Of a stretch of DNA of 5,251 nt, positions 120 through 5,251 are shown one piece after another; the stretch's first letter is position 1, and every line of letters starts with the position of its first letter. The stretch comes from a bacterium (GTDB taxonomy: Bacteria; ARS69): NCBI GenBank assembly GCA_025774865.1, contig JALGZO010000175.1, positions 1-5,251 on the forward strand, given 5' to 3'. The position numbers were made by a program, and so were the translations under genes. Below the pieces are notes generated by a model. That model saw nothing but the letters and a program-made list of their open reading frames with translations, searched no databases and was not told the DNA's origin.

Positions 120-734
120 CTAGCCGCCGCCGAAGTGCTCTTCGTAATCCTCGATCGCCGCCGCGATCACGGCCTGGGCGTGCTCGTGATCGTACGAGCC
201 GCGCACCTCGATCGTCGCGCCCTTGCCTTCCACGAGCTTGTACGTGCTGAAGTAGTGCCGCAGCCGCTCCACGAGAATCTCGGGGAGCTCCGCGACGTCT
301 TCGACGTTCGCCCACAGATGATCGCTCTCGAGGACGGCGATGATCTTGTCGTCGGCCTCGCCGCCGTCGATCACCTCGAGCCCGCCGACCACCTTCGCGC
401 TGACGATCACCTCGGAGCGGTTGATCGGACGCTCGCTCAGGACGCAGATGTCGAGGGGGTCGGCGTCGCCGCCGTCGGCGGCGGGCATGAGCGCTCCGAC
501 GCGCACCCCGGAGAACGTGCGGGGGATGAACCCGTAGAGCGCCGGAGGCTGCGACGAGGTCCGCTGCGGCCGGTCAACTCGCGTGTAGCCGGTCGTCTTG
601 TCGACCTCGTACTTCACCACGTCGAACGGCGTGATCTCGATGTAGGCGTTGACGACCTTGGGGGGATCGTCGCCCACGTCCAGCCCGTGCCAGGGGTGGG
701 GTCGCCAACGGTAAAAGGGCTTCGGAAAGGTCAT
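120..734 (-). CDS. ppa: Soluble family I inorganic pyrophosphatase
   Basis: Hydrolyses pyrophosphate to two phosphates in the cytoplasm (EC 3.6.1.1), pulling forward nucleic-acid, protein and lipid synthesis. The 204-residue product aligns by eye with E. coli Ppa. K41 and E43 (VVKYEVDK) match K29/E31, R55 (VDR) matches R43, and Y67 (YGFIP) matches Y55. D90, D92 and D95 (DADPLD) match the metal ligands D65/D67/D70. D123, D128 and K130 match D97/D102/K104, and Y165-K166 match Y141-K142, so the catalytic set looks intact. It is about 30 residues longer than the E. coli enzyme, largely through an N-terminal extension ([12 protein letters not shown]) typical of a distinct subgroup. I chose the ATG at 734 because AAGGGGAG sits 7 nt upstream and the conserved N-terminus begins there. 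An ATG at 767 (GGAGG 4 nt upstream) and a GTG at 788 are in-frame alternatives. It lies 44 bp downstream of rmuC and is probably co-transcribed with it. Confidence 0.95.
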
Positions 735-741
735 CGCTGAG

Positions 742-749
742 CTCCCCTT
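742..749 (-). promoter_or_regulatory. Ribosome binding site deciding the ppa start
   Basis: The minus strand reads AAGGGGAG followed by a 7-nt spacer before the ATG at 734. A competing GGAGG at 772-776 precedes the in-frame ATG at 767 by only 4 nt and would add 11 residues ([11 protein letters not shown]) that lie outside the conserved family N-terminus. The spacing and conservation favour 734, but translation from both starts is possible. Confidence 0.55.
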
Positions 750-778
750 GCTCGGGTCCGGTTTCATGCCGCCTCCGG

Positions 779-2170
779 CTAGGTCCACAGGTCCGATTGC
801 TTGATGACCGAGTTCGGCGTCTCCTCGACGGGGTGCGGCGCATCGAGTGTCCGCTTCGACTGCTCGGTGACGGCGAGCTCCTCGAGCCGGCGTCCGAGGG
901 GAAGCAGGCGCCGCTCGAACGAACCGGCCGCCGCGTTGAAGGAATCCACCGCCACGTTGAGCCCCTTCCCGACGTTCGCGAGCCGCTCTCCGAACAGGGC
1001 GGCGCGGTCGTAGAGCTGGCGCGCGATCTCCGCGATCTTGACGGCGTTCTCGGCCATCGCCTTCTGCTGCCAGTAGATCGCGACCGTCCGCAGGAGCGCG
1101 ACGAGCGTGGTGGGGGTCGCCACGAGGACGCGGGATCGCAGCGCCTCGAGCTGTAGATCGGGATCGCGCGCGAAGGCGGCCGCGAGGAACTGGTCACCCG
1201 GCAGGAAGAGGACGACCAGATCCACGTCGCCGGTGACGGCCTGCGCGTAGTCGCGGGCGGCGAGCGTCCGGATGTGGGTCCGTATCGCGGCGAGGTGCCG
1301 GTCGAGCGCGTCCTCCCTGGCCTCGTCGGTCGTCGCCTGCATGGCGTCCACGTACGCGTTGATGGAGACCTTCGAGTCGACGGCGATGAAGCGCTCACCC
1401 GGGAGGCGCACCACGAGATCCGGCCGCTTGCCGTCCCCAACGTGCTCCTGCCTCAGGAAGTCGACGTGCTGGGACATTCCGGCGAGCTCCACGACGTTCT
1501 CGAGCACGATTTCGCCCCAGCGGCCCTGCATCTGAGAGCCCTTGAGCGCGCTCGTGAGCGACGTGGTCTTCTCCTGCAGGGTGGACGTGGCGTGGAGCAG
1601 CCCCTCGAGCTGCGTCTTGACCTCCCGGTAGGCTCCCTCGCGCGCCTTCTCGATCTCCCCGGTGCGCGACTCGAGCTTGCCGAGCGTCACCTGCAGCGGT
1701 CCGAGCAGCGTCTCGATCGAGCGGCGGCGCGCCTCCAGATCCTGCGCTCCCTGCTCCCGCGAGGCTTTCCACTTCTCCTCGGCCAGCTTCAGAAAGTCCT
1801 CGGTGTTGCCCTTCAAAGCTGCGCCGGCCAGCGCCTGGAACGAATCCTCGAGCTCTCGTCGAGAACCCTGGAGGAACTCTTTCTGCTCGCGAATGATCCG
1901 CTCCGCGTACTCGACGCGCTCCCGGTAGGCGACGAGCTCCTGGCCGGTCGCGTCCTTGTCGCGACGGACCTCTCGTAGCTCGACCTCGAGCTCCTGACGC
2001 CGAGCGTGCTCCCCTTCGAACGCCGTCTCCGCGGCGGCGACACGTTCCGCGCTTTCGAGCCGCTCCCGCTGGTCCCGCGCGCGCGACCGACCCGCGGCGA
2101 GGAGCCAACCCGCGCCGAAGCCGAGGCCGACGCCGGCGATCACTATCAACGTCAGAGGCAGACCGCTCAT
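779..2170 (-). CDS. rmuC: RmuC family protein (putative DNA recombination limiting factor)
   Basis: A 463-residue RmuC homologue. In E. coli, loss of rmuC raises the frequency of inversions between short inverted repeats; the biochemical activity is poorly defined, but the core resembles the PD-(D/E)xK nuclease fold. Residues 5-26 form an N-terminal membrane segment ([21 protein letters not shown]), followed by a charged, predicted coiled-coil stretch at about 30-205. The RmuC core spans about 205-425. Within it are GRWGE (216-220), PDLVVRLP (250-257), the nuclease-like DSK (265-267), LFLPGDQF (321-328) and a [18 protein letters not shown] stretch (352-369). Length and order are typical of the family. 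The start at 2170 is preceded by GGGAGG at 2175-2180 and places the membrane anchor at the N-terminus. The frame stays open to 2350, but that extension overlaps the divergent gene and resembles no RmuC N-terminus. It is followed by ppa on the same strand. Confidence 0.94.
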
Positions 2171-2283: not shown

Positions 2284-5251
2284 ATGCGGGAGAGCCCACT
2301 GGCACGGCAAGCGAAAGATTTCCTCCTCCGGTGGACAGTCGAGCGACCAAAGGTCATCGTCGCCCTTTGCATTCTCGCGACCGTTCTCTTCGCCGCGCAG
2401 ATACCTCGCATCCGCATCGACACGGACCCCGAGAACATGCTTCCCGCGGACGAGCCCGTCCGCATCCACCACCACGAGGTGAAGGAGACGTTCGGCGAGG
2501 AATCCGGCGGCGTGTTCCGTCCCGAGACGCTCGAGCGGGTCAACGAGATCACGGAGCGGATCCTCGACCTCGACGGAGTGATCGAGGACGACGTTCTCGC
2601 GCCCTCCCAGGTCGACGACATCTACACGCTCGACGACGGAACCCTCCGGGTCGATACGCTCATGGAGGAGGCACCGGCGTCGGCAGCGGAAGCGCAACGT
2701 GTCCTCGTACAGATCCGCGACAACCCGGTCCTTCGGGGCAAGCTCGCCTCCGACGACGGACAGGCGCTGGCGATCTTCGTGCCGGTGGAGTCGAAGGACG
2801 TCGCGGACGAGGTGGCGAAGGGGATCGAGGAGATTCTTCGCGAAGTCGGCGGCGACGAGGAGTATCACCTCGCGGGCATTCCGCTGGCCGAGGACCGTTT
2901 CGGGGCGCAGATGTTTGTCCAGATGGCGGTCGCCGCGCCGGCCGCGTTCGCTCTGATCTTCCTTCTCATGCTGTTCTTCTTCCGCAACGTCCGCCTCGTC
3001 GTGGCGCCGATGATCGTCGCGATGATGAGCGTCACCTGGGCGATGGGACTCCTCATCGGAATGGGCTTCACGGTGCACATCATGAGCTCGATGATTCCGG
3101 TCTTCCTCATCCCCATCGCGGTACTCGACGCCATTCACGTCCTCTCGGAGTTTCACGAGCGCCTGCCGAACGCGGCGAGCCGCAACGAGGCGATTCGCGG
3201 AACGATCCGCGAGCTCTTCGCGCCGATGGGCTTCACCACGCTCACCACGATCGTCGGGTTCTCCTCACTCATGCTCACCCCGATCCCTCCCGTCCAGGTG
3301 TTCGGCGCATTCGTCGCGTTCGGCATCGGAGCAGCGTGGTTTCTGACGATGACCTTCCTCGTCGCGTGGCTCGCCATGGCGCCCGAGAAGACGCTCGAGA
3401 ACTTCGGGTTTTCCGAAGAACGTGACTTCCTCGGCAACCGTTTCCTGGGGAAGCTCCGAGACTTCTCGCAGAATCGCGCCCGTCCGCTCGTGGTCGCGGG
3501 GGCGGTGGTGTTCGCGGCGTCGGTCGCCGGGCTCTTCCGGATCGAGGTGAACGACAATCCGGTCAACTGGTTCCGCGCCGATCACCCGTTGCGCGTCGCC
3601 GATACCGTCATGAACCGGCACCTCTCGGGAACGTATCTGACGTACCTCTCCCTCGACGGAGGCGAGGCGGACGCGCTGAAGAATCCGGCCGCGATGCGGT
3701 GGATCGAGCGCCTCCAGCGGAACCTCGAGGAGGATCCCAACGTCGGCGGGACGACGTCGATCGTGGACATCGTGAAGAAGGTCCGGGCGGAGCTGAAGGG
3801 GGACCCGGCCGAAGCGGTTGTCCCGGATTCGCCGGAAGAGATCGCACAGTACCTCTTCCTCTACGAGATCTCCGGCGGCGACCCGGAGGACCTCTTCAAG
3901 CTCGTCACTTCGGACACCGACCAAGCGGCCGTCTGGGTCCAGATGCGCAAAGGCGAAAACCGCGACGTGGCGCGCGTCGTGGCGCTGGCCGAGGAATTCG
4001 TCGCGGCTCACCCGCCGCCTGGACTCGACGCTCGGTGGGCGGGCCTGCCGTACATCAACATCACGTGGCAGCAGAAGATGGTCGCCGGCATGGGAAGGGC
4101 GCTCGGTGGGAGCTTCGTCGTCGTGCTCTTGATGATGACGCTCCTCTTTCGCTCCTTCCGCCTGGGCCTCCTTTCGATGATCCCGCTCACGGCGACGATC
4201 ACTCTCGTGTACGGGATCATCGGCTGGATCGGGAAGCCGTACGACATGCCGATCGCGGTGCTCTCTTCCCTCTCGCTCGGGCTCTCGATCGACTTCTCGA
4301 TTCACTTTCTCCAGCGGGCCCGCGAGGCCTTCGAGCGGCGCGGTGATCTCGGCGGCGCCCTGGAGGAGGTGTTCGGGGCGCCAGCCCGGGCGATCGTCCG
4401 CAACGTGGTCGTCATCGCGTTGGGATTTGTACCCATGTTCTTCGCGAACCTGATGCCGTACGTTACGGTCGCGGTGTTCTTCTTCGCGATCATGATCATT
4501 TCGGGGGCTACGACCATGTTTTCCCTGCCCGCGCTACTCTCCCTGTGGAACCCGTCTTATCTCGCCCGTCGGGGTAAGGCCCCTTCGGCCTCGATTGCGG
4601 CCGGCCTCACGATCGCGTTCCTGCTCGTCTCGCCGGGGGCGGCGCGCGCCCAGCTCGACGATGTCGTCGAGGAAATCGACCCCAGCGTGTACATGCGGGC
4701 GAGTCACCTCGCCATGTACTACGCGGCCGAGGACGGACGGGCCGTCGTCGAGATGGAGCTCGCCGACAAGAAGGGCAAGACGAGGACGCGTCGCTTCGTC
4801 ATGATCCGCCTCGACGAAGAGGAAGGCGGCCGGCAGCGTTACTTCACTTACTTCTTCGAACCGAACGACGTGCGCCGGACCACGTTCATGGTCTGGAAGG
4901 ATCCGGAAGAGGACGACGCGCGTTGGATCTTCGTCCCGGCGGTGGACCTCGTGAAGCGGATCTCGGCGAAGGACAAGGGATCGTCCTTCGTCGGCAGCGA
5001 CTTCTCGTACGAGGACGTGTCCGGACGGCATTGGATGGAGGACGACCACGAGTTCCTGCGCGCGGAGGAAGTCGGCGAGCGCCGCGCCTGGGTGATCCAG
5101 AGCGTGCCCAAGGAGAAGGACCACTTCTCGAGGAAGCTCACGTGGGTCGACAACGAATCCGGGCTCCCGCTGCGTGAGGAGTACTACGATCGTAAGGATC
5201 GGTTGGAGAGGATCTTCGTCGCCGAATCGATCGAGACGATCGACGGTCACC
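2284..5251 (+). CDS. MMPL/HAE3-type RND transporter fused to a LolA-like lipoprotein-sorting domain (3' end outside window)
   Basis: One frame without a stop, at least 989 codons, running off the right edge. Residues 1-757 are a full RND permease of the MMPL family. Helix 1 is at about 23-40, periplasmic porter domain 1 at about 41-210, helices 2-6 at about 212-366, helix 7 at about 402-418, porter domain 2 at about 419-600, and helices 8-12 at about 607-755. Both repeats keep the membrane aspartate expected for proton coupling: D282 (VLDAIH) and D670 (LSIDFSIH). Such pumps sit in the inner membrane and, in relatives, export lipids or other hydrophobic molecules using the proton gradient; the substrate here is unknown. 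A basic linker and hydrophobic segment (762-789) lead into a LolA-like domain (790 onward) with the family hallmarks WIFVPAVDLVKRIS (881-894), SFVGSDFSYED (901-911) and LREEYYD (964-970). About 30-50 residues of that domain are probably missing beyond the edge. Porter domain 1 looks shortened near residue 71. These two parts are usually separate adjacent genes. Confidence 0.92.
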   Translation, partial: MRESPLARQAKDFLLRWTVERPKVIVALCILATVLFAAQIPRIRIDTDPENMLPADEPVRIHHHEVKETFGEESGGVFRPETLERVNEITERILDLDGVIEDDVLAPSQVDDIYTLDDGTLRVDTLMEEAPASAAEAQRVLVQIRDNPVLRGKLASDDGQALAIFVPVESKDVADEVAKGIEEILREVGGDEEYHLAGIPLAEDRFGAQMFVQMAVAAPAAFALIFLLMLFFFRNVRLVVAPMIVAMMSVTWAMGLLIGMGFTVHIMSSMIPVFLIPIAVLDAIHVLSEFHERLPNAASRNEAIRGTIRELFAPMGFTTLTTIVGFSSLMLTPIPPVQVFGAFVAFGIGAAWFLTMTFLVAWLAMAPEKTLENFGFSEERDFLGNRFLGKLRDFSQNRARPLVVAGAVVFAASVAGLFRIEVNDNPVNWFRADHPLRVADTVMNRHLSGTYLTYLSLDGGEADALKNPAAMRWIERLQRNLEEDPNVGGTTSIVDIVKKVRAELKGDPAEAVVPDSPEEIAQYLFLYEISGGDPEDLFKLVTSDTDQAAVWVQMRKGENRDVARVVALAEEFVAAHPPPGLDARWAGLPYINITWQQKMVAGMGRALGGSFVVVLLMMTLLFRSFRLGLLSMIPLTATITLVYGIIGWIGKPYDMPIAVLSSLSLGLSIDFSIHFLQRAREAFERRGDLGGALEEVFGAPARAIVRNVVVIALGFVPMFFANLMPYVTVAVFFFAIMIISGATTMFSLPALLSLWNPSYLARRGKAPSASIAAGLTIAFLLVSPGAARAQLDDVVEEIDPSVYMRASHLAMYYAAEDGRAVVEMELADKKGKTRTRRFVMIRLDEEEGGRQRYFTYFFEPNDVRRTTFMVWKDPEEDDARWIFVPAVDLVKRISAKDKGSSFVGSDFSYEDVSGRHWMEDDHEFLRAEEVGERRAWVIQSVPKEKDHFSRKLTWVDNESGLPLREEYYDRKDRLERIFVAESIETIDGH
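4567..4650 (+). other. Internal signal-peptide-like or 13th membrane segment within the fusion
   Basis: Residues 762-789 have the three parts of a Sec signal peptide: basic RRGK, a hydrophobic core (SIAAGLTIAFLLVS) and an exit ending A787-R788-A789 before Q790, which fits the A-x-A rule for signal peptidase I. RND permeases end in the cytoplasm after helix 12, so this segment would cross back out and place the following domain in the periplasm, in keeping with the positive-inside rule. Whether it is cleaved or stays as a tether cannot be told from sequence. Confidence 0.75.
4651..5251 (+). other. LolA-like outer-membrane lipoprotein-sorting domain (part of the fused CDS, incomplete)
   Basis: This is the C-terminal domain of the fused gene, beginning at Q790 (QLDDVVEEIDP). 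It belongs to the family annotated as outer membrane lipoprotein-sorting protein (LolA_like), a half-barrel fold related to LolA that is thought to bind lipid or acyl chains in the periplasm. Recognisable elements in order are RYFTYFFEPNDVRRTTFMVW, DDARWIFVPAVDLVKRIS, SFVGSDFSYEDV, a VIQSVPKEKDHFSRKLTWVD stretch, and LPLREEYYDRKDRLERIF. Free-standing members carry their own signal peptide, which is what the preceding segment resembles. It lacks a lipobox cysteine. The end of the domain is outside the window. Confidence 0.88.

Follow-up and report, generated by a model that had tools for sequence, protein, structure and literature searches.

A pump and a carrier in one reading frame

The stretch of DNA analysed here (the window; 5,251 nucleotides) is the complete contig JALGZO010000175.1 (C178 of genome G000) from a 785-contig draft genome of a bacterium of the GTDB lineage ARS69 (GCA_025774865.1). 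On its forward strand, a single gene encodes an inner-membrane MMPL/COG1033-type RND pump followed by a periplasmic LolA-like carrier. The frame extends from the ATG at 2284 to the contig end (2284-5250) and contains 989 codons and zero stops. Both families were recognized in the same translated protein: PF03176 (MMPL) matches twice, with 114 bits against a Pfam gathering score of 20.5, and PF17131 (LolA_like) matches residues 850-988 with 132 bits against a gathering score of 30. The carrier domain is incomplete, the contig ending at about position 141 of the 184 in the PF17131 profile. A preliminary description of this DNA had proposed a stop-free fusion in which pump helix 12 ends near 4550 and the LolA-like domain starts at 4651. 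The fusion was confirmed, and the coordinates agree with the structure model, in which the last RND helix is predicted to end at residue 754 (nucleotide 4545) and the carrier strands start at about residue 817. The gene is laid out as follows.

2284..4545 (+): MMPL/COG1033-type RND pump, residues 1-754, with 12 membrane helices and two periplasmic porter regions (two Pfam MMPL matches, AlphaFold model, invariant Asp670)
4546..4593 (+): basic cytoplasmic linker, the putative n-region of an internal signal peptide, containing R-R-G-K (from the translation)
4594..4629 (+): hydrophobic core of the signal-peptide-like segment (IAAGLTIAFLLV); helix at residues 769-782 in the model, then a predicted local distance difference test score below 50 at 784-795
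4639..4653 (+): predicted signal peptidase I site A-A-R-A|Q, an [AVSTG]-x-A site, with the cut at 4650/4651 (residues 789/790)
4651..5251 (+): LolA-like, putative periplasmic lipid-carrier domain (PF17131), the last 200 residues, incomplete at the contig end (132 bits; matches to solved LolA-like structures)

The AlphaFold model of the pump half has the 12-helix RND fold, with Z scores of 41-43 against NPC1L1, MmpL5 and AcrB, and its nearest neighbours are MmpL3/4/5, NPC1-type and HpnN transporters, the majority of them for lipids or other large hydrophobic molecules. As the model came without inter-domain error estimates, it was used for the domain folds alone and we make no docking claim. 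The nearest named subfamily is HAE3 (TIGR00921), to which the pump is not assigned, scoring 199 bits against the NCBI curated cut-off of 351.9. A transmembrane aspartate in the second repeat, Asp670, is invariant in 51 of 51 relatives and is the probable proton-relay residue, judging from sequence conservation. The carrier half matches the solved LolA-like structures 9tp6, 3bk5 and 4z48. Upstream, genes for an RmuC-family protein (780-2170, minus strand) and an inorganic pyrophosphatase (120-788, minus strand) are directed away from the pump gene and have no evident link to it.

Spread of the fusion and a conserved third gene

An open frame of this kind could arise if an assembly or sequencing error had deleted a stop codon or shifted the frame, and the short contig and fragmented draft genome (785 contigs) lend some weight to this explanation. 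Against it, the reading frame likewise continues across the junction in two independently assembled relatives from two other genera, G002 (L009) and G003 (L091/L098). Their proteins are 65-68% identical to that of the window, and in a tree of pump plus carrier the three form one clade with 100% support in the Shimodaira-Hasegawa-like approximate likelihood ratio test. A stop codon or base lost in a single assembly is therefore not the explanation. With open junctions in three genera, assembly error was ruled out as the source of the open frame, and we regard an error of any kind as exceedingly improbable. Close relatives had been proposed as the place where a stop codon or frameshift at the junction might be seen; G002 and G003, in the clade of the window, have none, and G001 and G004 are split. 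These are the two split members of the window's own family, which comprises five genomes in five genera, three of them fused. Widening the family survey to class and phylum returned the same five genomes.

A broader survey covered 80 relatives taken from genome contigs, in 79 of which pump and carrier lie on one contig. Adjacent separate genes were scored in 70 of the 79 and fused genes in nine; adding the window and G003 gives 11 fused genes among 83 loci. In the comparison of fused with split relatives that the preliminary description had called for, the fusion is the minority state. Because the fusion label needs eight changes on the tree, at least seven of them forced by well supported branches, fusion of the neighbouring genes has happened repeatedly and independently. 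It is also old within the clade of the window, because the members of the clade are about 0.5 changes per site apart. In the split relative G001, the pump stop and the carrier start overlap in ATGA, a likely precursor state of the fusion; a one-base insertion or deletion in this overlap would suffice to yield it. Three loci carry further stops. In the fused gene of L011 (Eisenbacteria), a stop near 3951-3953 lies inside the carrier domain and similarity runs on past it, so that the gene may be broken or misassembled. In L025 and L028, a stop codon falls in the middle of the pump frame (match residues 139 and 318), which may mean a pseudogene or a read error.

The gene after the carrier in relatives codes for a barrel of some 420 residues, weakly similar to DUF1302 in 15 of the 18 scanned; the barrel model resembles the OprD/OccK and AlgE barrels with a Z score of about 22. 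This gene comes next in almost every locus that has enough sequence, the fused relative G003 among them. This conserved third gene suggests that inner-membrane pump, periplasmic carrier and outer-membrane barrel form a three-part exporter of hydrophobic molecules. In several Zixibacteria and related genomes (L012, L016, L035, L040 and L078), a gene for an extracytoplasmic function (ECF) sigma factor lies directly upstream of the pump-carrier-barrel operon; in the near relatives L020 and L021, a divergent sigma-54 activator takes its place.

The join and the fate of the carrier

In the join, basic residues precede a hydrophobic core of about 12 residues (4594-4629), which is followed by ARA|Q at 4650/4651. 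It is the signal peptide with which the separate carrier gene of split relatives begins. In all 11 fused genes, the join is built like a signal peptide, with n-, h- and c-regions. An [AVSTG]-x-A site was likewise found in 11 of 11, compared with 80% of the 70 split-gene signal peptides and 19% of 603 RND membrane segments. The last helix of RND pumps generally ends in the cytoplasm, and since this applies to the last pump helix here, the hydrophobic segment would direct the carrier into the periplasm, its necessary place of action.

We consider it fairly probable, from the sequence of the join, that the gene product is a precursor which Sec inserts and signal peptidase I then separates into a pump and a free carrier, and we favour this over a permanent tether. 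A true fusion of two usually neighbouring genes would yield a precursor composed of the RND pump, the carrier's old signal peptide and the LolA-like carrier. Sec would insert the pump in the inner membrane so that the last pump helix ends on the cytoplasmic side, and the signal-peptide-like segment would then start a second export event that places the carrier in the periplasm. Signal peptidase I would most likely cut after Ala789, releasing an ordinary soluble carrier and leaving an ordinary pump, the two in equal amounts. The proton-driven pump would lift a hydrophobic molecule out of the inner membrane, and the carrier would bring it across the periplasm to the outer-membrane barrel encoded next in the operon. 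We infer both the outward direction of transport and the class of substrate, which may be a lipid, a lipopeptide or a hydrocarbon.

A precedent for such processing is FbcH, the cytochrome b/c1 precursor of Bradyrhizobium, in which a membrane protein and a periplasmic protein are made as one chain and an internal signal sequence is cut by signal peptidase. Its proteins are unrelated to the RND-LolA fusion, and cleavage there is experimentally established. The window likewise contains an internal signal-peptide-like segment with a predicted cleavage site at the join, although shuffled linkers give similar site counts.

Several observations weigh against the proposed precursor and its route to the barrel. 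When the Ala-rich linkers were shuffled, about as many strict [AVSTG]-x-A sites were obtained (fraction 0.46, not significant); the cleavage site alone is therefore not statistically proven and is supporting evidence only. No experimental data on cleavage were found, and in some lineages the site may not yet have had time to decay since fusion. The barrel profile matched nothing elsewhere in the draft genome of the window, whose contig ends inside the carrier, leaving the next gene out of view. G002, the contig of which ends at the same place, yielded no barrel gene either.

If the join were left uncut, its hydrophobic segment would serve as a 13th membrane helix, and a carrier held permanently beside the pump exit would load there and pass its cargo to another carrier or to the barrel. 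The hydrophobic run is as long as RND membrane segments (an uncharged run of about 17 against 16.5), and the fusion has been kept across a clade whose members differ by about 0.5 changes per site; both are in line with such a tether. On the other side, every one of the 11 fused genes retains a cleavage-like site, the short core runs into a low-confidence stretch of the model, and most relatives manage without fusion. Moreover, the hydrophobic segment and the carrier fold are no more than about 16-28 residues apart. Judging from the model, an uncut tether would be far too short for the carrier to reach the outer membrane, while it could permit contact with the pump. Permanent tethering is thus an unlikely alternative, if one to be taken seriously, and we are slightly more doubtful still of its stronger form, in which pump and carrier joined through a 13th helix act as one machine that loads at the pump exit; we found no description of such an RND lipid exporter. 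Were this form correct, the fusion would have been selected for coupled hand-off and not for equal amounts alone. The signal-peptide-like join, with an [AVSTG]-x-A site in every one of the 11 fused genes, makes release of the carrier more likely than tethering. Of the earlier proposal that the fusion implies 1:1 coupling, the partnership of the pump with a periplasmic lipid carrier is supported, and permanent tethering is not.

Some fused genes may also make the carrier in a second way. In five of the 11 (L009, L015, L018, L023 and L024), a strong Shine-Dalgarno sequence and a start codon lie just before the signal peptide, an arrangement found in 3.9% of control windows, and in L011 a GTG preceded by GGAGG was identified by eye at this position. 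If the carrier were still made separately from such an internal start, the open frame would matter little. The window contains no in-frame ATG, GTG or TTG with a Shine-Dalgarno sequence where the carrier start would lie, which led us to reject an internal start there; only a rare start such as ATT is left. L013, L030, L054 and L091 also lack a Shine-Dalgarno start before the signal peptide. As a general account, separate synthesis of the carrier is therefore improbable, whereas the five genes with strong internal starts may produce it both fused and free. The distribution suggests that neighbouring genes first passed through a stage of read-through with an internal start and then became obligately fused.

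That fusion occurred repeatedly and independently, and precisely at the signal peptide, is good reason to regard pump and carrier as partners. The genes described here connect a widespread but little-studied RND pump family with a particular periplasmic carrier and a particular outer-membrane barrel. They offer a natural system for testing how lipids are passed across the periplasm by RND pumps and whether cleavable membrane-protein precursors are commoner in bacteria than has been assumed.

Comparison with known systems

The preliminary description gave MMPL pumps and LolA-like proteins as otherwise separate proteins. This is contradicted by fused homologues in Thalassolituus and Acinetobacter, which have the architecture of the window, a pump followed by a LolA-like domain in one frame. 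TOL_3187 of Thalassolituus oleivorans MIL-1, reported in 2018, combines two MMPL domains with a LolA-like domain and is 42-fold up on C28 alkane; the porin-like TOL_3188 adjoins it and both are induced on this substrate (PMC6304351). We liken TOL_3187 to the window by its description, not by sequence. Its host differs in being a marine alkane degrader, and its authors propose porin export, not lipid export (PMC6304351). The alkane uptake proteins AupA and AupB were considered as the same system and rejected: AupA is FadL-like, AupB is annotated as of unknown function, and neither gives any sign of RND or LolA.

In Acinetobacter baumannii (L104), a 1216-residue protein carries MMPL and LolA_like in one frame, and the overlapping next gene encodes a 423-residue DUF1302-like barrel. 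L104 shares with the window the MMPL pump, the signal-peptide-like join (SHA|D, its matching layout read by eye) and the LolA_like domain. It differs in being only about 25% identical, in an extra N-terminal polyketide-cyclase/START-type domain and in its place beside a lipopeptide synthetase, the fused gene lying downstream of one that reads as a peptide synthetase. The extra domain (gene at 1786-5436) is on the cytoplasmic side and is possibly a loader for the pump. By gene order and size, not by accession, the L104 fusion would be A1S_0116, and its locus A1S_0115-0117 of the acinetin-505 operon. In that operon, A1S_0116 has been proposed to export the product and A1S_0117 (424 residues) to be porin-like, and A1S_0116 mutants are impaired in surface motility (PMC5376624, PMC7997844).

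Unfused systems have a similar composition. The Castellaniella monoterpene exporter AmeABCD likewise combines an HAE3-type RND pump, a LolA-superfamily periplasmic protein (DUF1329) and a DUF1302 outer-membrane protein, but all its genes are separate, DUF1329 stands in place of PF17131 and there is an extra periplasmic protein, AmeC (PMC6394551). In the E. coli aryl polyene cluster (ApeL, ApeM and ApeN), an RND pump is likewise accompanied by a LolA-like chaperone that serves an outer-membrane lipid, but the genes are separate and a LolB-like protein takes the place of the barrel (PMC8253772). Bacteroidetes operons with neighbouring MMPL and LolA-like genes have been found to rise strongly under iron limitation.

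Taken together, this is a genuine fusion, conserved within its clade, yet of a protein kind already described, since fused MMPL-LolA proteins have been published (TOL_3187) or are present but unremarked (the 1216-residue Acinetobacter protein). What is new beside these systems is that fusion occurred many times independently and precisely at the signal peptide, that some lineages retain internal starts and that the third gene is conserved.
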